Source: Lineus longissimus (Eukaryota > Nemertea > Pilidiophora > Heteronemertea > Lineidae). From it: a DNA stretch of 64,000 nt. Positions 8,731-23,800 of this stretch are shown here, one piece after another (position 1 is the stretch's first letter; the number at the start of each line of letters is the position of its first letter). The translations under genes were made by a program, and so were the position numbers. The notes under the pieces were generated by a model that was not told the DNA's origin, did no database searches, and was given only the letters and a program-made list of their open reading frames with translations. Location: positions 5,024,001-5,088,000 of the forward strand of contig NC_088316.1 of the NCBI RefSeq assembly GCF_910592395.1, read 5' to 3'.

Positions 8731-9075
8731 CTAGAATCTATGAGATACTCCTTGTAAATAATGAGTCCAGTATGCTATGTTAAAAAAGAAGTAGGCCAAT
8801 GGGAATAGAATTCGACTTAACACTTCCACTCTCTCCGACCACTCTGTCTTTTTCCAATAGGTACATACAGATTTTTTAGTTCGTCCAAAAGTGATTGGTT
8901 TCGGCCGTTTTGTTGGTTTTTGTCTAATTCTGACGTCATGTCTGACATCAGCATCAGCAATGCCACTGTCCGTACTTCCACTGTTGTTAGATAATGACGT
9001 CATCATATGGCCGTTACTCATGGTGTTCGCACTCATTGATAGGACTGCTTTAGTGTTCATCCGTAGCCCCCTCAC
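8731..9075 (-). CDS. Channel exon 9: M3-M4 loop end, M4, stop
   Basis: The acceptor is GTTTTGCAG and entry is phase 0 (VRGLRMNTK). 114 residues: a Ser/Asn/Met-rich cytoplasmic stretch, a basic KRPKPITFGRTKK segment, then ERVEVLSRILFPLAYFFFNI, the M4 helix, and a short tail ending SHRF. M4 shows the usual R-I-x-FP-L-x(4)-FN-x-x-YW pattern. Confidence 0.92.
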   Translation of the reverse strand: MRGLRMNTKAVLSMSANTMSNGHMMTSLSNNSGSTDSGIADADVRHDVRIRQKPTKRPKPITFGRTKKSVCTYWKKTEWSERVEVLSRILFPLAYFFFNIAYWTHYLQGVSHRF

Positions 9076-12000
9076 CTGCAAAACATTAAAACGAGGACAG
9101 ATCAGCCTATATGTCTGACGACAATAACCAAGTCATTTTCCATTGCATAAAAAAGCATTTGGAATTATATCGTTCAGGGACAAAAACTGTATGACCCATT
9201 GAGTAAAAAACTACGGCAACATTTTAGTGCCACTAAAGAAGAAAAAAAAGAAAACACTTCTCGTAATAACGACTTTTAATCTCGTAATAACGACTTTCTT
9301 TCTCGTTATAACGACTTTTAATCTCATAATAACGACTTTGTTTCTCATAATAACGACTTTATTTCTCATTATAACGACTTTCTTTCTCGTTATAACGACT
9401 TCCTTTCTCATAATAACGACTTTTAATTAAAAGTCGTTATTACGAGATTAAAAGTCGTTATTACGAGAAATGTTTTCTTTTTTTCTTCTTCTTTAGTGGC
9501 ACTATAATGCTGCCGTACAAAACCGAGGGAATTACCTAGAAACCAGCAACAGTTTTTGGGCGGATGACACCGTGACTACAGTACAGTGTCTGTTTTATCA
9601 ATCTTGTCATTGGATTTGGCTAGCTGACTGTGTTTGTAAACAACCTATTTCACCCGCTAAGAGTTATTACAGCGAGGCGATATACAGTGTTCTAAGTCTC
9701 CGTCCTATACACTATTTAATGATATCGATCTCGCCATGTGCATGTACGTTCAAGCATAGTACACATTAACAAATTTATCAAAAGTACAATAGTACGTCTG
9801 GACAAATACAACACGCTGCTGAATCTCGCCTCAGTTATACTTGTGCGTCACCATACAATGTCAATAGAGTGCATGGCTTGAAGAGAGCATGAGAAAACAA
9901 TGCTAGGTACCACTCCGATGCAGCGAGAGGGCTGTTCAAAATGTTCAAGAGTTGTAATAAATACGCCATGCCAACGGCATGTAGAGTTTGCCGGTATATG
10001 TTAAAGTTATAAAATGACGTCATGTTGATATGACTGACGTATGTGTGTACCATAGATTCACCGGTATCAGACCGGATGATTGATTAATATGACATCGAAA
10101 CAAAAGCCAAACAGGAACACCGGCAAAATATAAACATGATAAATAGTGGTGCTAATTGCAAGCAATTGTTCATTATCCAAATTGAACACGCTGTACGGCA
10201 GCGATTAAAGTGCTCATTATTTGGTTTGAATTGAATATTCATGATTGATCTTATAGGGGAAATTAGAGTAAATGAGCCGAAGTAGGCAAAACACTTTCAT
10301 CGAAAACCCTTAACACCAATGACCTTCTTTTTCGCATAGTTTAAGGGTTTTTTGTGACCGGCAGCCATTTGGGTTCAAATTTTGGAGGAATATTGGCAAT
10401 AGTTTCCCTCTCTCGCATTAGTTTGGTACTACAATATTCGGAGGCGGTCAAGCAAAGGAGGTATGCATACACATTTTGTGGTGGACGTTTGCTTTTGGAG
10501 CATGCTGCATAATGCATTGTTACTACTATTTGCACATCACAACACCTTTCGAAAGCAGTTATTAGCCCAAAATTACAAACATGTACGTTTTGAACACAGT
10601 CTTCTAGAATGTACAGGAATTGCCGTGCAAAAAGGATATACTGGGAAAAGAAACTATTTGCAAAAATGTAACCAAAATTTGACTTCCAAAATCCAAGATG
10701 GCGTCCGATAACATAACCCATAAGAATATAAACGATGTATCTTAGAAATGTTTGGGCTTGTAAAAGACGTCACGTGTCATCTTAGCCCTCGTCTTGTGAA
10801 ATAACAGCAATGCCCCTTAAACTTTTATCGAACATATTATCATGACACTTCCTCCAGCGGGACGCCAGATCCTTTCACATCGAATAACCCTCACCGTGAT
10901 TGTCCTTGGAGGCAATGGCCCTACGTCGTCCCCTTCATCCGACTCAGTGTCCGACACTTTATATTTAGGACCCCCTCTCTTTAGACGTCTCTTTGCCTCT
11001 TGCCTTGCAAGCACGTTCACCACGGCAAACTCGAGGAAGGCAATGAATACGAACACGAGATTCGTTAAAAGCCAGACGTCTATTGCTTTTACATAAGATA
11101 CTCTGAAAACAAAAACAAACATTAAATGAAGAGTTTCAAAAGCTTACAAGCTCCGTCCTATCAATCAGTACCTCAGATATTAAAGAAATCCAGTCGTGGC
11201 ACAAAAAGTTTATTAAGACTAGCTAAACTTAGTAAAATAACTAAATTGGTTATTTTACCTCTTATGCAGTTCATTGACTGGAGTCAGTAATGTTATGCAA
11301 TGTTAGGCAGATGCCCACCTCATGTAATCAACTACCTGGGGGAACTCGAAACTTCTAAGATTCATCAATGGAAGCTTATTCCTACCTTAAGTTTTAACCG
11401 GGCCGTTCAAAAATCCCCATTTTTATAAGCGTTTCGTGACAGGTTTCATTTAAAAGCGCGAAAAAACCGCATTTGCACTAAATATACTATTTGCACTAAA
11501 AATATTATTCTAGGACAATTAAAACTGTTATGCACGATCGTAGAAGTGCTACATTGTGTTTGCTGATGGATTAAAACTAATTTGATGACTGGATTTTTAC
11601 GAATTTAATACTCTTATCTCAATAACATATGATTATAATGACAGAGGAAATAAAATAGTTGACACCCGGAAATATCAGTATCCTCTGTGAAGCAAGTGCG
11701 GCCAATGTGTTTTAGTGTAATTTTAGTTGTCGTATTCGATCGCAGTAAATCTAGCAAATGGAAATGGGTGACGGGTGATTAATACGCTGTTACCGCTGCT
11801 GCATGCCTGAACAACTGCAAATTAAAGTAATCATCATGATAAGTTATATTTACATGAGAGAAATCGCGTAGGAATAACATAATTTTAACTTAGATTGGAG
11901 ATCGTGGATATCGATCGGAGATGTGTTCCAAACCCTAGGTAGGGCCAATCTATTTGGACCGTGGTACAATGAATTTCGGAGTTACCTTGGCAATGTAGAC

Positions 12001-15000
12001 CTAAGTCCGGAGGACTGCGTTGTGGTCGTGAGAATGGTCAATATCCCGAGTGAGATTCTCGCAGGGACGGAATTGACGTCCAACCAGAAGGATACCCATG
12101 ACAATATGACTGTGAGCACACTTGGAATATACAAGCCGACTATGTAATAGCCTATTTGGCGTGTCATTGGAATACCTGCTGTAAGCAACATGAATGTACC
12201 TGGAAAGAAATTGGGAGTAGTTTACAAGGCATGATCATAAGCGCCATCCTGCTTGAACAAATTCTGCAGGATTTTTATCAGAGGAAATACCAAATTTTGT
12301 TAATGAAAAATATATGAATGATTTTTATGGCGTGTTAGTCCATTCCCAACGCAAACATTGCCGCAGTCAAAAACAATTACATGTAATCGCTCTATTTCAT
12401 TGATTTCCTTCCGTTGCACCAAGTCCAGTTAGCCATTTACATGTGTAGGGAGCAACTATGAATCTGAAAAGAATCTAATCAGTTTTTTCGACCTCGCTTT
12501 ACCGGTTTGATACGATTCCATTTTTTCAGACCAGAATGGTTCTCCTTGGTTGAACTCTTCTACCACCACGTCGTCTGATATTTTTATCGCCGGACCCACT
12601 GTATGCCATTGTAACAATATCTCGTCAGTTGTGTGACCATCTGAAGTGGTAGTATGTCTTATAGTTATGTTATATTTCTAACAAGAAGAAAACGAAATGA
12701 GCAAGCTCGTCAAATGACAAATGATGTGTGCACGTGAAACTTGAAATAATTGTGCAACAGGAGTCTTATGTTAACCGGCTATAATGTTTTCATAGTTTCT
12801 CTCCTGGTCATTTTGACGCAAAATGGCATTGGGTCCATTAGACCGAGTTTCCATATGATGTTGTAAGTTGTCACAGTTTATGTTTTACATGTCACTTGAC
12901 ACGTTATAGGCTTAGGCTTGAAAACACGACATGGATGAGGGAGAAAATGATAAAGAATTGTGTAAGAACACAAACAAAAAAGACTGAGAAGTTGATTTTG
13001 AATTATCAAGTAGGTTTCATGATCACAATTCCTAACTACTTTAAAAGAATACATATCGGTATTTCTGAGGTGAATCCCATGCAGCCCGCTCACTTTACGT
13101 TTACACGTTCTTAATTGGGTGTTTTCGCAGAACCCCTGAAACGTCAACGAAAATGCCCATCCCACCGTTCGAGCTCCTGGTCACGATATCTAGCCATGGG
13201 ATAGGCGCTCGCCTGGGGGTTTCGGGGCTTTGCGAAAACTCCGTAATTATAAATTGACCCGTTATATCGTGACAACGTGACTTCTATGACAAGCTAGGTT
13301 GACAAAACTGTACTTACAACTTTCTACTTTGATTTTACACGTTTGGTTATCCATTGGAAACTTCACGAGGTCCATGTGACAGGAGAAACTTAACGTCAGC
13401 CTGAAGGAGAGTACATTCCAATTCAAAACCATACTGACAATACCAGTCCTCTCTACAAATAAGGACGTTACTCTACAGTATATTGCAGATCTATTGATTA
13501 CAAATTTACTTCCAATGTACTCGTTTGGATTGGTCTTTGGCTTCAAAATCATGCAAATTAACAGTTACGTTGATATTTGAATGCATGTGCTATAATATGC
13601 TCAGTGCAGTGCACGTAAGATATGTAGTTCTTATCTTATGCACATGCCCACTGTGAATGTTTATACCGGTGTGAACCTTGTTACAACCGTAAAACCGAAA
13701 GGTTTTGAGTCAAGAACGAGAAATCAGACGAGACATAAAAATAACAGTAAAAAGGTGTGTGTGAGAAAAAAAGAAACAATGGAATCATTGTGTATCTTGC
13801 CAAGAATATAGCTCAGAAAAAGCTTTAAAATGTTCGAGCTCAAAGCCTTTATGCTGCAAGCGACGCACAAGACAGGCAAGTACGGATGAACACATCCAAA
13901 ACGATGATGAGCAAGCGAAAAGGGAAGGATGGCAAGTTGGGAAGGATGACACGGATGGGTTATCAATCGACATTTGGAAGGATCGCAGTGTTCATATTGA
14001 CTAAGCTAGACGACAAGGGTGGCAGGGGGAGATGACCAAGCGTGCGAAACAGGGTAGAGATGTAGACCAAGCGACACAAGAGGGGTAGCAAGGGCGGCCG
14101 ACCAAGTAACACTCATCATTAGAGACTTTTTACATCATTAGAGAGTTTTTACTTCGGTGGTACCACGTACATGAATCCTGCGCCTTTTATCATTCACATT
14201 TCCCATTAGTAACCTGTTTCGTATGCACGAGCTGCTTTGAATAAAAAAGGACGTGCCAAAGAACAACTTTATCGATATATTTTGAATTGTAAAATGACAC
14301 TGATTGACCAGAGGTGTTTCTATTCTGACTACATTCATTATAGGCCATTAGAAGAAATAGACGAGTCGATTAAGAATAGAAAAATCGAAAGATAAAGTTT
14401 GATCCAGCAGCATGACAAACTGCGATCGTGAATACAATTTTCCAAGGAATTTATAATTGTTCAAAAAATACTTGGTGACCATGTCGAGTAAACAGTTTTC
14501 AGGGAATAACCTTTGATGTCTGGTGAAACAGGTTTTCAAATCCTCTCCCCATGAATTAAAAAAGTGTTGGAATATTTTGCAACTAGCAAAGTCACACAGT
14601 ACCCTTGTTTTCCCCATGCAATGGAAAAAAAGAAAATTACGTCTCAGCAGCAGCGGTCTGGATTGTATAGAAAATATGCCCAAAGGCGACAATGTTGTGG
14701 TTTTGAGCATATGATAGGCATGTACTTGAAAGAGCGAACGCTGCGAGCTGCTTAAGTTAGCGTCCATACTGGGTTTTTTTTGTGTGGTGATGACATGAAG
14801 GGTCGTATTTTGAAAGTTTTCGTCCATTTTGATGATCACCAAATATCTTTTAAACCGTCAACTACTATATCTAACCTGGTTGAGTACACAATATGTCCTG
14901 TTCTATTCACTCGAAGGAGGACATTGGGAGTTGTGATAACGTGATCAGTGGCCTCTTTCTCTCCAGGAAAGTAGGTGTCCGGTAGCCAAATCCGGTCAAG

Positions 15001-17799
15001 CTGCGCGTAGCCAAGGGTGATTTCATCTTCGGGAAATTGATCCTTCGTAAAGATTAACCGTCGGTCACGCCAGCGTTGTATCAAGTACATGCCTATGTTT
15101 ATTTCCTATAAGCGAGAGAGAGAAGACTATGTCAGATCGAGGCCTAAAGAATACACGCCAAATAAGGAAACAGGTGCAGCGGGTCCATGTATCAAGTCCA
15201 AATGGGTCTGATAAAACCAAATGATTCGAAATATGGTATTTTGACTTTATTTGCTCTATGCATAATATTTGGCATTTTTCAATGCAAAGTAGGAGGTGAC
15301 CTAATCGAGTACCCAAAACATACGCCGTAGAAGAGAGTCGCCCTCTTTATCTGCACATAATTATATACTGACACCGACCGGGAATCGAACCGGGGACGTA
15401 ACAGGCGCTGATGTGTCCACTGCGCCACTCTGACTGCCCAAATGTACATCTCAATGTCTTTTTCCTTAACATTTTTTCAATGGCATTTGAGGAAGGCGAT
15501 ATGATACATCATGAATTGTTGGCTGTTCTTCCTTAGATTTTACTACCTTTTTGCCAGTGTTTTCGTAACTGTTATATCAAGTGCATGTAGTGGAAGACCT
15601 TTCTTTTTGTCAGGTCACCATAAGACATGTTAGAGCACTCGTTTGGAAATGGTCAACTTAAGAAATGTAGCTCAATGATATGCCAGTCTATTTTCTTGCG
15701 TTTCTAACACGAAGGCATTCCAGAAAGGCGTGTTACTATTTATTTTGAAGGCCTTGAATTAATTTTCATAACTTAATTTAATTTCTTAATTGTAATTATA
15801 TCCCCCAGGTAGGCAATACATGAACACACTACAGCCGCGCGCAAAGCGATAACGATGTCTTTAAAATACTGTAAACCGGGAATGTTCGATTGCGAGTCAG
15901 AGCATATCATTTTCACACATTTCACAAATTTTATAATTATGTGATGCTAGATACCGAAATTGATCAGTCAATTAGTTTTAGTTCTATCATTTTCATGAAA
16001 TATCCACCCTCGATGGTGAACGCTTTGATAAACTCAAATCGTTTACCTTCCCAAAATAAATTTTCCCATACATTTAGCGCCACGAATAGTCCTGGTTCAC
16101 ATCCTCAGCCAACAGAAAGACACCAAGTGAATGATCTGTTCAAATGGTCGTCTACCTTGTGGTGTATAAGACATCACCATCTTCATTTATCCTCAGCAAG
16201 ACATTGGGTGTTGTAATTGCATGCTTAATTGCCCGTTTCTCAAAAGGGAAATATGTATCTGGGAGCCAGATTTGCCCGAGTCTAAGATACCCTAGGGTGA
16301 TATTTGGTTCATGCCAACTAGACGAATTATAGGCCAGTCGTTTGTCTCTCCATCGTTGTCTGAGGAACATGCCAATTGTAAGTTCCTACACAAAATATAA
16401 TTACATCAACAAGATAAAGTTATGTGACCGGCCCTGGCTAAAAGATCCGTATCCATTTTTTTAAACGATTTAGAACTTCAACTGTGTCCAGAGGTGTTTA
16501 GAAACATATAATACAGTAAATGTAAGTGTAAGTGTTCCCTCAGATTTTCTTACAAAAAAAATTAATAGCCTATATACGGAAAACTTTGAACACCTGCTAG
16601 TGATGTATGATGAATTCGTTTTGTCACTCAATCCTTAACAGATTGTCATGCATTAATATCAAAGTCAAAGATAATTTTGTGAGAAATCATTAATTACATG
16701 TACTCAAAAATGTAGTTTTACTCATTATAGTACCGATTTAGCCAGAGCCCATCACATATTAATGATGAAATGGCCAGGGCCATTGTGCTCACCTCATTTG
16801 GAGGAAAGATGGATAAAGAGCATGGTCTTGTGTCATGTAGTGTTAGGTTTGATGTAGGTCCAAGCAATTACAATTTCCCCAAAATGGCCAATACAGTACA
16901 TTCGACCTCTGTGACCTTGAAAAGTAGGTCAAATCAAAGAAGACCCGGGTGACACATTGAATGGTTGTTAGAATAAGATGTACCTATGATATAAAATTGG
17001 TGCCAATCGGGCAAGTCATTACTAGGAATAATGGCATTTTGAAGAATTTAGGATTTGGCCCCCTCCCTGGAGGCCAAACGGCAAATCAGATCGCACCAAA
17101 CTTCGATACCTGAGATCACCTGACCAAGGGGTACATGTGTACTTAATTTGTGATCAATAGTCATTGCAGTGAAGAAACGTGCCATAGTTACGGCCTGACG
17201 GCGAATTTACGCCATTTGACCTCTGTGACCTTGACAAGAAGGTCAAATTAAAAACCTGTGTGACATATACTGTATGGTGGTTAGCTGTACCCATGATATC
17301 AAATTGGTGGCAATCGGGCAAGAAGTTAAGGAATAATCACATTTTTAAGGCTTTTGGATTTTGCCCCCTGGTGGTCAAGTGGTGAATCATATTGGACCAA
17401 ACTTCGGTCCCTGAGATCAGCTGACTAAGGGGTAAATGTGTACCAAATTTGGTATCAATAGTCATTGCAGTTTAGAAACGTGCCATCGTCACATCCTAAC
17501 GGCCAATTTACACCATTTGACCTCTGTGACCTTGAAAAGGAGGTCAAATCAAAAACCCGGAGGATATGATGCACCTTTGCTAGAAGTACCTACCATATTT
17601 TTTTCAAAATTTCCCGACTACTATTAAGGGAGATATTGTATATTTTCACTTTTAACGTTTGGCCCCCTGGTGGCCAAACCATGAAACGAATCGGACCGAA
17701 ACTTGGTCTCCCAAGTGTCATTACATAAGGGTACATGTGTACCAAGTTTCAACTCAATAGCTCTAACAGTTACGAAACGTGCCCTGCTAACGGACGACG

Positions 17800-17858
<59 letters not shown>

Positions 17859-20800
17859 ACGACGGACGCCACGGTATGGGATAAGCTCACCTCTGCTAAG
17901 AGGTGAGCTAAAAACGTCAGTATAGCGTGTCAATAAATGTACACTGAACTATCCCGGCATTTTTGTCAACTTGACAATGGTGCACAATGTAAGGTAGCAT
18001 GGGGTAATTGTAGCCCCGGTTTAATTGTAGCTCCTGCCTGTGATATTGATTGATATCCCCATGCATCAAACAAGGCAGGGGCTACAAATACCCCATTCTA
18101 CTCTAAATACACGATGAGGAGTGCTTATTCTGAACAACAGCGCGTAAAGTTGTACTTCTGAAATAGGTGCCATCTTTCTATATATCATCTCATGATGGCT
18201 CAAGGATACCAGAACTACGTCACGTCCGCGTGCCTGATTTATGCTTAACTACAAGATCAGCTGATATGCTTGTCTTTTTGTCAGATTTTACCCTCGAGGC
18301 GATGAAAAACCAACCTCTACTAAGTGCCATTCAAGTTTGGAGTAAAATGGATCAGGTCTTGGTCCTCACCTTCTGAATTTTCATTGAAAAGGAAATTGGA
18401 ATGCTGGCATCTATGAGTAAACGGATGAAGCTACATCAGTAAGCTTCTGTCAGAAAATACCATTCAGTGTCAGAGGTTGCAACATGCACCGCACTCATTT
18501 TTTCCCAAATTGTCACCTAGTAGACTTTCTGGTTCTCTGATCACCGCCCCACTTACAAAAGCGGCAACGTGTGCACCAATAGCCAATGCTGGCTTTGAAT
18601 ATTGCTAACAGTGGACTTCAATATTTGGTCTGGAGAGTACGGTGATGCAAAAACGAGAAAAAAAATCCATTGGGATTGTTTTGTTTTATCTGAATTTTCA
18701 TTTATCAATCATCATTTAATAATTACCATCTTAACTGCACTAATCTCGGCGATATCTATTACCAGCATCTGTATGGTGACTTTTGTAGTTCCTGAAAGAA
18801 AAGCATTTCCGAAATAGTTTTTGCGGTATGATAATCGAATATCAGTGAAATGGTTTCCAGCAAGAAGTCCAAAACCACTATTGCGCACACGTGCTAATTG
18901 AATCTCATTAAAACTCATTTAATCACGCCACTGTATTAAAACTAATCTAGTTTGCACTCAACAATTTTCCATACATACATTTTAATGTAACACTACAAAA
19001 ACACCATACAATCGACGAACATTAAAAAAGAAGGCCAAAAAGGAAGGCCAGTCCGCCTTTGCCGAAACGCTTATAATAAATTATCGTTAATTCTAGGCCA
19101 TCAAAAAGCCCTTCTTACAGCAATATTTCAGACAAAAGCACGAAATATTTCGTACAAACATAACATTACAACATTTTCTTAATTGTTGGAATAAGAAAGG
19201 CAAAGCAGGTCCTATTGTACAATTTCGGAAATTTTAAAATATATGACAGCCAATATTATTCAATGTAGCTAGCAAGACCGCTTCACCACACTACTATATT
19301 ACTGCGGGGAGGGGCAAATACGTACCCTTTCCCGCATCTGGTCTGATCTGTCTGTCATATCGATCCGGCCCGAGGAGACTATTCAGGAATTTTTGCAGAT
19401 CCATATCCCCATTAACTGCAGTGTTATCCTCCGCACTGAAATGGAGATTTCCAGCTTAAAGTTACAGATATTCAAATATGCTGTATTTCATATACTGTAC
19501 GTGGTCAGAAGGTTAACCGGTGTACAGTCTCAAATGTCACTCTTGCAAAAAGAGTCCGTCCGGGTCATGGTGACGGAAGATATAATAGATGCATGACATA
19601 ATGGCGGACGCTTGCGCACTCGATCACTAACGGAACCTTATTAATGCGGTTTCAAATTGTTATGCAGCAATGGCTATTACTTTTGCAGGCACTTCATGCC
19701 TTATATTTGACCGTCTACAGGCTGGCCCGGAAAAATCTCCCCTTGCACAATAGAATTCTATTGTATATTCATTGTGTCAGGGAAACGTTTCCTGGGCCAC
19801 TCGGTAGTGTAATTGCAACACCGGTAACATTCTGTTGAATGCTTCTTTGGAAATCGAGTTTCCAAAAAGAGGTGATACTGCTGCCCTGTCAACGACTTGA
19901 GTACATGTGTCGAATCATTGATGATGAGCATGGAGGGAATAAACTTGGTATCTAACGTAGGCCTATAGCTGGAAATTATATCAATTAGATTAGACTTATG
20001 TGGAGTTGGGGGGAGGGGGGCATTTGCCTGCCTTTTTAACTTTCTCTTTGAACTGGAGGCGAGTTTTATGGAATCCAGGCAGCGCAATACAATGATTCAA
20101 AACTTAGCGTCCAGCGTCAAGCGTCTAAATCAGCGTCCAGGTTTTACCAACTACCGTACAATCACATATGTTTGTCAATCGGGCCGTCAACCATGGATCC
20201 GGATGGGGTTGCCAGCTCCCCAGCGCATAAAATGGGTATTTGAAACCTATGGATTATAAAACTGTGGATTGGACTGGGAAAGTCTGGACTGACACTGACA
20301 TTGAGCTCTTATTTCCACGTGCCTGTGGTGAGAGTAGGACCACCTCACCACACTACTATTACTACTATATCTGCACCGAAGTGGGCTGAACGCCGTTTAC
20401 TCTTCTTACGGTAGATGACGCAGTTTTAAACTAGTATTACTCTGTCTATCTGTCCTGTAAAAAAAAGACGATCGTGGCTCTTGGCTCTTGGCTCTTGGCT
20501 CTTGGCTCACAGATAATGGTGTCCCGTAACTAGTACTGCATCAAGAATTCTCTCCACACGGATACACATTGCCAAAGGCAACACAGTAAATCACAATATC
20601 ACTCCAAATTCGCAAGTATCTTTTGAATGGAGTTTATTTCCAGAGTTGATTTCAACAATGACCGGCTGCGTTCAAGTGAGGTTGATCCGGTGTATTCCAT
20701 TGTATCGATTTGCAACATTTGCAGCGAGTCCAATTTCATTTCTGAAATCCTCACAACAGCATCGGTGCACGTTAACAAGACTTGCTTCAGACCAATTTTT

Positions 20801-23800
20801 CGAGAAGAAAAGCAGCAGTTGATCAACGAAATGTTTTCGTCCATGCGAAACTTTAAAGTTTTAGTATCGAAAACACTCGCTCTGCCAAAATCAGACGATT
20901 CATGAACGATTAGTCAAAATTCTCGCCACAAGTGCCAATTCACTCATTCAGTGAATAATTATATAGTTCATTGCATTAAGATAATAACACTACGTAGTTT
21001 CAAATTTGAGTCGATTTATATACAATAGGGTTCGAAGTATCTACATACAATAGTATTGGCATTTCCCCGTGTCGTCCCCCTATTTAATTTTTGCCTGAGG
21101 TATATATGGAGTCCACAAAAGGCTGCTGTCCGCCTTTGTGGGATCTTTAACTTGCCCTAGCATAGAGACACTCGAGTACAAGGGACCACTGCTGTTTGGT
21201 CTTATCTGACCGACCCTCATCAATTGATATCATATTAGTTTCTCGAAAGCCACGCCGGTATAGAAGTTTGAAATGTCCTTCATGTAGGACAGAATGTCCC
21301 GTGAACGAACAAATTCTATTATGCGCTCTCCATTGCTCAGGATCCATCGGAATTCACAATTTGATAAGGGAAAAACACTTTTTCAAACGGGACATTTTCT
21401 ACTTCCCCACCGGTTCATCCAGAACTAAAATCCTCAGTGGTTCTCTGAAGAATTGAGCCTGGCGTATGTAGTACATTATGAGTGTTTTTGTGTGCGAGTG
21501 TTTCCCCTGCAATAGATCAGGCCTCGAATGGGTCTTGTTCGGTTAGTGGTCTCATTCTCCGTAAATAGGGGAACACTAATGTTACACCGGGTCTCATCCC
21601 GTGGTGGTAGCCACTATCCTTAAGCTTTTGGCTCCCTTTATAATTGACGCATAGCCTAGCCGTTTCGTTTTGCACTTTTGTGGAGGAGGCCTACATGTCT
21701 AAATGAGCTAATGAATTAATTATACACGGACTGGTCTGACATTGATTCTAAAATCTCACAATGTCTAGTGTTGATACGAATAACTCAGTCTTAGAGTGAA
21801 TGAAGTATTTCTATTGGAAATCGTAGAGGCTTTTTGACATTTTCCTTACAGTGTGACTGTGTATGAGCCTTGATAGTGTACAGTAAACTAGGACAGAAAT
21901 CTAGAGCAATGATTTTTTTCGTACGGTGATAAGTACTAACACGCTGTGCATTGCAGCGTTGGGGACTCCCCTTCCCCAGTTTTAACCTCGTGATATGATC
22001 TTTTGCCTTGGTGAGTTTCAGTCCGTGTTTTTCCCCTTTTATCTCGCCTCAGCCATCATGAACTTCACTAGCTGCGACCCTCGAAGCCAACGGGCCTATC
22101 TCAATGTATAATGGTCTATGACATCTTCCAGCATTTATTGAAAGTTCAATTTCAAATTCGTACCCTGATCCCCTGAAAGAGTGGGGAGAGGGAGGGGTGG
22201 GGGGGGGACCCAAATTACAGTTGGGGGCATTTACCTTGTGTCCTTGATCACTTACCTTATGCAAGAACTTAGCGCAGCTAATATAATCCAGTGTTGAATC
22301 ATCATGCTTAGAATGTGTAGGTGTCGCTACTTCGAATCACATCACGTTAATCTAAAGATGAGAAGAGAAAAAAACTCTAGCGTCAACGAACTAAGATCGC
22401 TTTATTAATGACGAAGAAATCGACGACCACGCTGAATATTGACGTCCTGAAAAAAAAGGCGATTTACTTGCTGTCGCCAACCCATTTTTTATTCGAATAT
22501 TGCAAATGGAGTGTTTATTCCGTCATATTGATATCGAACGACCATGTGCATCATCCATTTCGTGAATATTCAGAAATGTGTCAAAAGTCATACCTCAGGT
22601 GTGGATCGTTGAAACTAAAGTATATCGAACAGAAATATTAAGAACTTTTAAACACGATTGAATAAACTCCACAAAGATGAGACATCAATGTAAATGAATA
22701 AAGTTCGTTTTCTGAATATGTTAAAAAATATCGAGAAATCTTGGATGTGACCTCCAGGCGAATAAACGCCTAGTTCATTTTAAAGACACTACAGTTAGAT
22801 TATTCAAGCGCTGATCAAGAAGTTTTGAGACGGGTTTAAATTCAAAACCGCTCTAGGTGATGAGTGTACGAAATTTTAAGAAAGATCCCTTTCTAAGAAA
22901 ATTGTCTCAAACTTTACATTTTGTACTGAGCTTATTTCACAAAAACTGCACAAGTGTGCTGCCCCCTAGCTGTGGCGGTCATTGGGCAAATCCCTCAACC
23001 ATGATGTAATATTAAAAGGTTTGCAAATTAAACTATAACTAGTTCAATCTCCGCTTCGGTTCATCATTAACACGTTCCATTCCCGACCGATGTCATACGT
23101 ACGCTTTAAAAATGTGTATGATAATCGTCTGCTAAACAGCATTCTGAACCATCAGAGTTAATCAGCATTGCATCAGAGTGCAGTTTCTTTGACAAAAATA
23201 AACATGATAGAATAGCTGTTGGAAGAAATTGATATTAGGATGTGAACAAATCGGTCAATAAGGTTAGTGAGTAGTTTTCGCAGTTTACGCACACCCGGTA
23301 GTGTGTCTGGTCATTCTTTTTGACGCTACTTTACCCTAGAGTTACTCGGCCCTGGCGCGAGAGCGTTCGGGTTCAATTCATACTGGGCATGCCCTTCAAG
23401 GCGTGAGATCCGGTGCTTCCCGAAGCGCGGCGCTTGAAATCGAACATGCTTAAAGATGACTCAGAGTCTCAGTCTCTAACATCACATGCATAATTATATT
23501 CAACTTCTTGTTCCGTCTATTCATATTGATCGTCCATGAAGTGGTCTTCACTTTACAACGTTTGAAGTACCGGCAGCTGTCTATATGATAATATACCAGT
23601 TGAATGTTGCACTACCCAATGCACACAGAAAAAAAATCAAAATACAACACCCAGCTTCTGGCAGGAAATCTGGAGGATATGCTGGCTGATTTTTGTCCGG
23701 AAAAATCAACACTGTGTTTGAAATCTATCGGACACTGTTTGTTAATCATGTGATCTGGGGGGAGGGGCATCTAAGGGGTAGCTGGTATGGGAAGAAAGCC

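Follow-up and report, generated by a model that had tools for sequence, protein, structure and literature searches.

The window analysed here, a 64,000-nucleotide stretch of chromosome 9 of the nemertean Lineus longissimus (C9:5024001-5088000), contains a gene for a glycine receptor-like (GlyR-like) Cys-loop channel in which the fourth coding exon is present twice. Both copies, designated 4B and 4A in their order along the gene, encode the loop D-A-E segment of the ligand-binding domain, and they probably form a mutually exclusive pair that arose by tandem duplication in this GlyR-like anion-channel gene. An earlier note on this DNA had proposed such a pair; frame exclusivity and the constraint on both copies speak for it, and the proposal is supported in part. 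The exons are all encoded on the minus strand, and positions without a chromosome prefix refer to the window.

Frame, splice sites and similarity of the two copies

Exons 4B and 4A are equal in length (230 bp), are entered in phase 0 and left in phase 2, and are both bordered by AG/GT splice sites; the coordinates, length, phases and splice dinucleotides given in the earlier note were rechecked on the sequence and are correct. With either copy in place, the gene has 480 open codons. Joining 4B to 4A yields ...TTR-K-stop, the stop lying directly after the lysine as had been foreseen, and skipping of both copies leaves exon 3 followed by exon 5 in a shifted frame that soon meets a stop. Joint use of 4A and 4B in one mRNA is therefore excluded by frame.

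The two copies encode the same residue at 45 of 76 whole codons and differ at the other 31, which agrees with the roughly 60% identity (46/77) counted previously if the split arginine codon is included. Their DNA is 59% identical, and they match each other with an E-value of 1.1e-25 in whole-genome searches. The likeness stops at the exon borders, as the intron flanks are only 32% and 19% identical over 100 nucleotides in an ungapped comparison. The donor of 4B matches the consensus at 6/9 positions and that of 4A at 7/9, within the range of 6 to 9 found for exons 1-3 and 5-8. Pyrimidines occupy 8/14 acceptor positions in 4B, as few as in exon 2, and 12/14 in 4A, as many as in exons 7 and 8. 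The pair is thus not set apart by its splice sites.

Constraint and origin of the pair

Comparison of 4A and 4B by codon position revealed identity at 51/76 first, 53/76 second and 30/76 third positions, and 6 of the 19 shared fourfold degenerate sites agree. Nonsynonymous divergence (dN) is 0.38; synonymous divergence (dS) is saturated and its estimate fails. When neutral evolution was simulated at the observed third-position divergence (2000 runs), a mean of 10 and a maximum of 20 of the 76 residues were identical, and 96% of the runs contained a stop. The codon-position pattern and the simulation therefore show that both copies have long been kept as protein-coding sequence, and both are under strong, purifying protein-level constraint.

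Genome searches listed 43 exon matches with 4A as the query and 40 with 4B, counts that are lower bounds with the tool used. Among the matches listed, the best non-self match of 4A was 4B (59%), the next reaching 51%, and the best-scoring match of 4B was 4A (59%), followed by C9:16424393, which reaches 61% in a somewhat shorter alignment. A tree built from 30 exons places 4A and 4B as sisters with support of 100/98, on branches of 0.50 and 0.26, respectively; the bootstrap was not fully settled according to the program. The tree sample draws on 32 of the 43 matches of 4A, 11 being left unfetched, and two exons were omitted, one for an unclear boundary and one for its shortness. As judged from these comparisons, 4A/4B is an old intragenic tandem exon duplication.

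Two other origins were rejected. A tblastn search with the exons of the gene, run over the stretch around the pair, found no match to exons 5-9 between 4B and 4A, and the refuting case named in the earlier note, 4B as a separate gene with its own exons 5-9, is hence rejected. A haplotype or assembly duplication was dismissed because the copies are only 59% identical in DNA. Chromosome 9 alone holds 31 of the 43 listed 4A matches, scattered across 20 Mb, which points to a largely chromosome-bound expansion of the family.

Gene architecture and family

The gene has nine coding exon positions, of which position 4 is present twice. Its features, with the evidence for each, are as follows.

22256..22305, minus strand: exon 1, with the start codon and an N-terminus resembling a signal peptide (judged by eye); open reading frame, GTAAGT donor, joined frame open
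19326..19435, minus strand: exon 2; AG/GT, open frame
18727..18791, minus strand: exon 3, 65 bp, ending in phase 0; AG/GT, open frame
16156..16385, minus strand: exon 4B, 230 bp, coding for loops D-A-E, loop D Arg present (FLRQ); AG/GT, identity to 4A, constraint, tree
15106..16155, minus strand: intron between 4B and 4A, 1050 nucleotides; docking sites not above chance
14876..15105, minus strand: exon 4A, 230 bp, coding for loops D-A-E, Ile in place of the loop D Arg (YLIQ); AG/GT, constraint, tree; start of the public protein P0001 inside
13318..13400, minus strand: exon 5, 83 bp, Cys-loop CHMDLVKFPMDNQTC and loop B; frame, PDB alignment
12503..12640, minus strand: exon 6, 138 bp, loops F and C; frame open with this acceptor
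11986..12199, minus strand: exon 7, transmembrane segments 1 and 2, PAR motif; frame, Pfam domains
10895..11102, minus strand: exon 8, transmembrane segment 3 and start of the intracellular loop; frame, Pfam domains
8731..9075, minus strand: exon 9, transmembrane segment 4 and stop codon; frame, Pfam domains

A boundary of exon 6 at 12677 was rejected, as it breaks the frame that 12640 keeps open. Both isoform proteins match the Pfam domains PF02931 (ligand-binding) and PF02932 (transmembrane). In a PDB search with the 4A form as the only query, glycine receptors were the closest solved structures (E 5e-88). The description of the gene as a Cys-loop channel with a duplicated loop D-A-E exon thus holds. 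Exon 5 encodes a loop with 13 residues between its cysteines and an FPxD motif (CHMDLVKFPMDNQTC), and exon 7 encodes a PAR motif before the second transmembrane segment (SVPARISLG). By its domains, Cys-loop and PAR motif, the gene product is an anion-type receptor of the GlyR/GABA-A group, with anion conduction as a prediction.

The loop B residues ESYG and the loop C residues YQTGTF both match the glycine receptor group. The second cysteine pair around loop C is missing: exon 6 and the beginning of exon 7 encode no cysteine, against two in this region of PDB entry 6plo. We therefore name the channel GlyR-like rather than a glycine receptor proper. Gating by glycine is putative.

The intron between 4B and 4A includes a tRNA-like stretch (15365-15440) with letters resembling boxes A and B by eye. 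ARAGORN called no tRNA within 13000-19000, and the stretch is therefore perhaps a remnant of a short interspersed nuclear element.

Differences in the agonist site

We take the swapped exon to provide loops D and E of the complementary face and loop A of the principal face, loops B, C, and F being constant. IFLRQ of 6plo aligns with MYLIQ of the 4A form, and 4B, placed through its own ungapped alignment with 4A, reads MFLRQ. At the positions of F63 and R65 of loop D of the glycine receptor (hand count), 4B thus has Phe and Arg, and 4A has Tyr and Ile. The earlier note had located the differences near the agonist-contact loops; this can be refined to the loop D arginine, which on the aligned sequences is the most telling ligand-site difference between the copies. 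R65 is a critical agonist contact in glycine receptors: the substitutions R65K and R65A are reported to lower the potency of glycine, measured as its half-maximal effective concentration, 200- and 1250-fold (PMC5640878, citing Grudzinska 2005). According to PMC4178172, Arg 56 of GluCl grips the gamma-carboxylate of glutamate along with a serine and a threonine; we equate this position with R65 of the glycine receptor.

An arginine occupies the position of GlyR residue 65 in 26 of the 31 exon-4 sequences examined. The five without it are 4A (Ile), both copies of a second exon pair described below (Gln and His), C9:20412737 (Asn), and C9:20008215 (Met). It is absent from 3/4 duplicated but only 2/27 single copies (Fisher p 0.008); since a single loss may account for both members of the second pair, this association between duplication and loss of the arginine is a hint, not a test.

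Exon 3 has Leu at GlyR position 44 (hand alignment). Together with Phe or Tyr at position 63, this would resemble the class of broad specificity that PMC4178172 describes for Aplysia GluClAc2. With regard to glycosylation sequons, the noted exchange of NRT in 4A for NIT in 4B is correct and a second one in 4B (NSS) had been overlooked, so that 4B has two and 4A one.

Proposed mechanism and points against it

We propose that either 4A or 4B is joined between exons 3 and 5 and that this choice is regulated. Messages with both copies or with neither shift frame and would be degraded or yield no channel. The complementary face built from 4B, with the usual Phe and Arg, should hold an amino-acid agonist, whereas that built from 4A, with Tyr and Ile, should bind glycine-like agonists weakly or accept another ligand, like a subunit that contributes only its principal face. 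Given Arg in 4B and Ile in 4A, exon choice would therefore exchange the complementary face of the agonist site, and it would set the sensitivity of the receptor per cell type or stage. This one gene probably enables the worm to produce two receptors that differ in their binding sites. If both isoforms are made, the receptors would differ in a central agonist contact and have the pore and loops B and C in common; the gene would then be a natural exon-swap experiment on the role of the complementary face.

Several observations weigh against this proposal. The one public protein model found for the gene, P0001, uses only 4A and starts at an internal Met. An orthologue from another nemertean, a comparison suggested in the earlier note, was not found: the best 120 of 1881 protein matches are a second Lineus protein (P0032, 37%) and proteins of other phyla, at 34-47% identity. 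The site comparison gave no sign of splice-site incompatibility between 4A and 4B, and steric exclusion is inapplicable because the intron between them is 1050 nucleotides long. The docking sites for which the earlier note had suggested a search around 15106-16155 did not emerge above chance in an ungapped search, in which the best intron duplexes scored 32, 30, and 35 against dinucleotide-shuffle means of 33.8, 32.8, and 34.2 (three introns, 60 shuffles each; gapped structures and conservation lay outside the search). Inverted repeats such as 15771-15801 with 16395-16425 (71% complementary) were not accepted as docking evidence. As to the ligand, the charge of a conserved binding-site Arg mattered little in a nematode GluCl described in PMC5339774. 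A missing loop D Arg is no proof that binding is lost, and the effects of R65 come from vertebrate receptors.

The public protein model and alternative readings

P0001 comprises 400 residues. It begins at a Met inside 4A and has no signal peptide, exons 1-3 or exon 4B. The annotation of its gene looks N-truncated. Three origins would fit the model: a prediction that is incomplete, use of an alternative first exon, and internal initiation on a message that includes both copies. The public proteins were clustered at 90% identity, at which isoforms would merge, and for this gene the Lineus cluster contains a single protein.

P0001 is exactly the product expected if 4A were an alternative first exon, with a promoter in the intron between 4B and 4A, an N-truncated protein of 400 residues starting at the 4A Met, and the full-length receptor made with 4B only. 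Immediately upstream of 4A there is a TAG in the same frame, and translation of a transcript begun there would start at this Met. However, 4A retains an acceptor AG, a pyrimidine-rich tract (12/14), five codons before the Met, and the phase of 4B, and the truncated protein would have neither a signal peptide nor the first beta strand of the binding domain. We regard this explanation as unlikely.

The absence of 4B from P0001 would also fit a situation in which only one copy serves in the working channel, the other being a relic or seldom included. Yet both copies are open, their splice sites are intact, and their amino acids are conserved although third positions are near saturation; an unused copy of such age should carry stops. 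This makes a relic quite improbable. That the pair is mainly a poison switch, in which double inclusion or skipping lowers expression through nonsense-mediated decay and isoform diversity is secondary, agrees with the early stop in both kinds of message but is very unlikely, as a poison exon does not need peptide conservation in both copies.

Duplicated binding-domain exons elsewhere in the genome

The reading of 4A/4B as a mutually exclusive pair is supported by other genes of this genome in which the architecture recurs. The earlier note had presented the pair as an independent case in a lineage other than insects; the lineage is indeed another, and the case is not isolated, with duplicated loop D exons in a second GlyR-like gene and in three nicotinic-type genes. 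The second pair (C9:18485614-18485831 and 18485894-18486111) consists of two 218-bp copies of the exon 4 counterpart, 62 nucleotides apart, in another GlyR-like gene, whose downstream sequence matches exons 5, 7, 8, and 9 and, weakly, exon 6. These copies share 47/72 residues, are sisters in the 30-exon tree (support 100/97), and show a dN of 0.21 against a dS of 1.10 (one method); both are without the loop D Arg (Gln and His). As far as the tree tells, this duplication is independent of that of 4A/4B.

The match lists include three same-strand pairs of exon 4 less than 10 kb apart, namely 4A/4B, the second pair, and C9:15750119/15756600. The last was rejected as an exon pair: its first member is followed by its own exons 5, 7, 8, and 9 (exon 6 gave no match), and downstream of its second member the 10 kb examined contain exons 5 and 7 and a weak match to exon 6. 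They are two genes, and duplication of exon 4 is thus counted in two GlyR-like genes, a lower bound.

The nicotinic-type duplications were first picked from a Pfam search list (best 150 scored) by repeated matches to one part of the binding domain. They comprise three tandem 110-bp loop D/A exons on C16 (1088985, 1089575, and 1090120, the last reaching 1090227), two such exons on C2 that are 78% identical (1474775 and 1474203; 1474203-1474885), and two more on C2 separated by a 52-nucleotide intron (5532181 and 5532019; 5532019-5532291). The downstream match of the latter gene had seemed broken by a TGA; this was rejected, as the TGA lies just past a GTAAGA donor and reflects intron read-through. 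Genome searches with the 110-bp exons listed 64 and 63 matches. Among them, five further same-strand neighbours less than 10 kb apart (C1:8592357/8602107, C1:6284256/6288748, C5:2252709/2257331, C9:14385609/14389782, and C20:138244/142336) were discarded as exon pairs, each neighbour having its own downstream binding-domain match, so that three nicotinic-type genes with tandem loop D/A exons are counted. They are candidates for alternative splicing.

The copy lengths of 230, 218, and 110 bp all leave a remainder of two on division by three, so that combining copies would disrupt the reading frame in all five genes. The introns of 62 and 52 nucleotides could add steric exclusion, for which a human survey uses a distance from donor to branch point below 50 nucleotides (PMC5740500).

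Tentatively, splice choice among tandem loop D-A exon copies may toggle the complementary half-site, the Arg form binding an amino acid and the other form (Ile here, Gln or His in the second pair) something else or nothing; this arrangement may have evolved repeatedly (in no fewer than two GlyR-like and three nicotinic-type genes) and provide a general means of diversifying a large Cys-loop family. If both isoforms are made, five such genes in one genome would also offer a direct test of the idea that tandem duplication in expanded Cys-loop families outside insects strikes binding-site exons again and again.

Comparison with known systems

Exon 3 of insect Rdl and GluCl is probably the short exon that precedes the long one for loops D, A, and E, provided that exon numbers correspond between the phyla. 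In Lineus, it is the long exon that is duplicated, and the 65-bp exon 3 is single. Insect Rdl (exons 3 and 6) and GluCl (exon 3) resemble the Lineus gene as anion-type Cys-loop channels with alternative ligand-binding-domain exons; the changes lie near loop D and alter the GABA affinity of Rdl, according to PMC2064938. The same source describes alternative exons in insect nicotinic acetylcholine receptors (nAChR), exon 4/4' of alpha4, which alters loop E, and exons 3 and 8 of alpha6, as most likely tandem duplicates. These too are spliced alternatives in Cys-loop genes, but of cation channels, and the nicotinic-type duplications of Lineus concern a 110-bp exon.

In the closest vertebrate family, glycine receptor alpha2 has alternative extracellular exons 3A and 3B that change two residues (PMC3484359), whereas exon 4 of the Lineus gene swaps 31/76, including a central agonist contact. 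Exon lengths not divisible by three are reported for 377 of 629 human mutually exclusive clusters (60%; PMC5740500). Those clusters were validated by splice-junction reads; the Lineus pair is known from genomic DNA.

A word search of the main text of a lophotrochozoan nAChR survey (PMC6896357) found neither Nemertea nor alternative splicing, and the titles and abstract starts that the PubMed Central searches listed (subscription journals and bioRxiv being outside this scope) gave no earlier report of the 4A/4B pair or of nemertean Cys-loop splicing. Alternative binding-domain exons are already known in insects and vertebrates; the Lineus pair differs from these in the exon concerned, the number of residues, the lost agonist contact, and the phylum, and the repetition in further genes is new.

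Other features of the window

Intron 3 contains repeats spaced about 300 bp apart (16883-17557) near a CGT-rich simple repeat. On the plus strand, an open frame of 627 codons at 48641-50524 matches RVT_1 (E 7.7e-26) and represents a piece of a retrotransposon.

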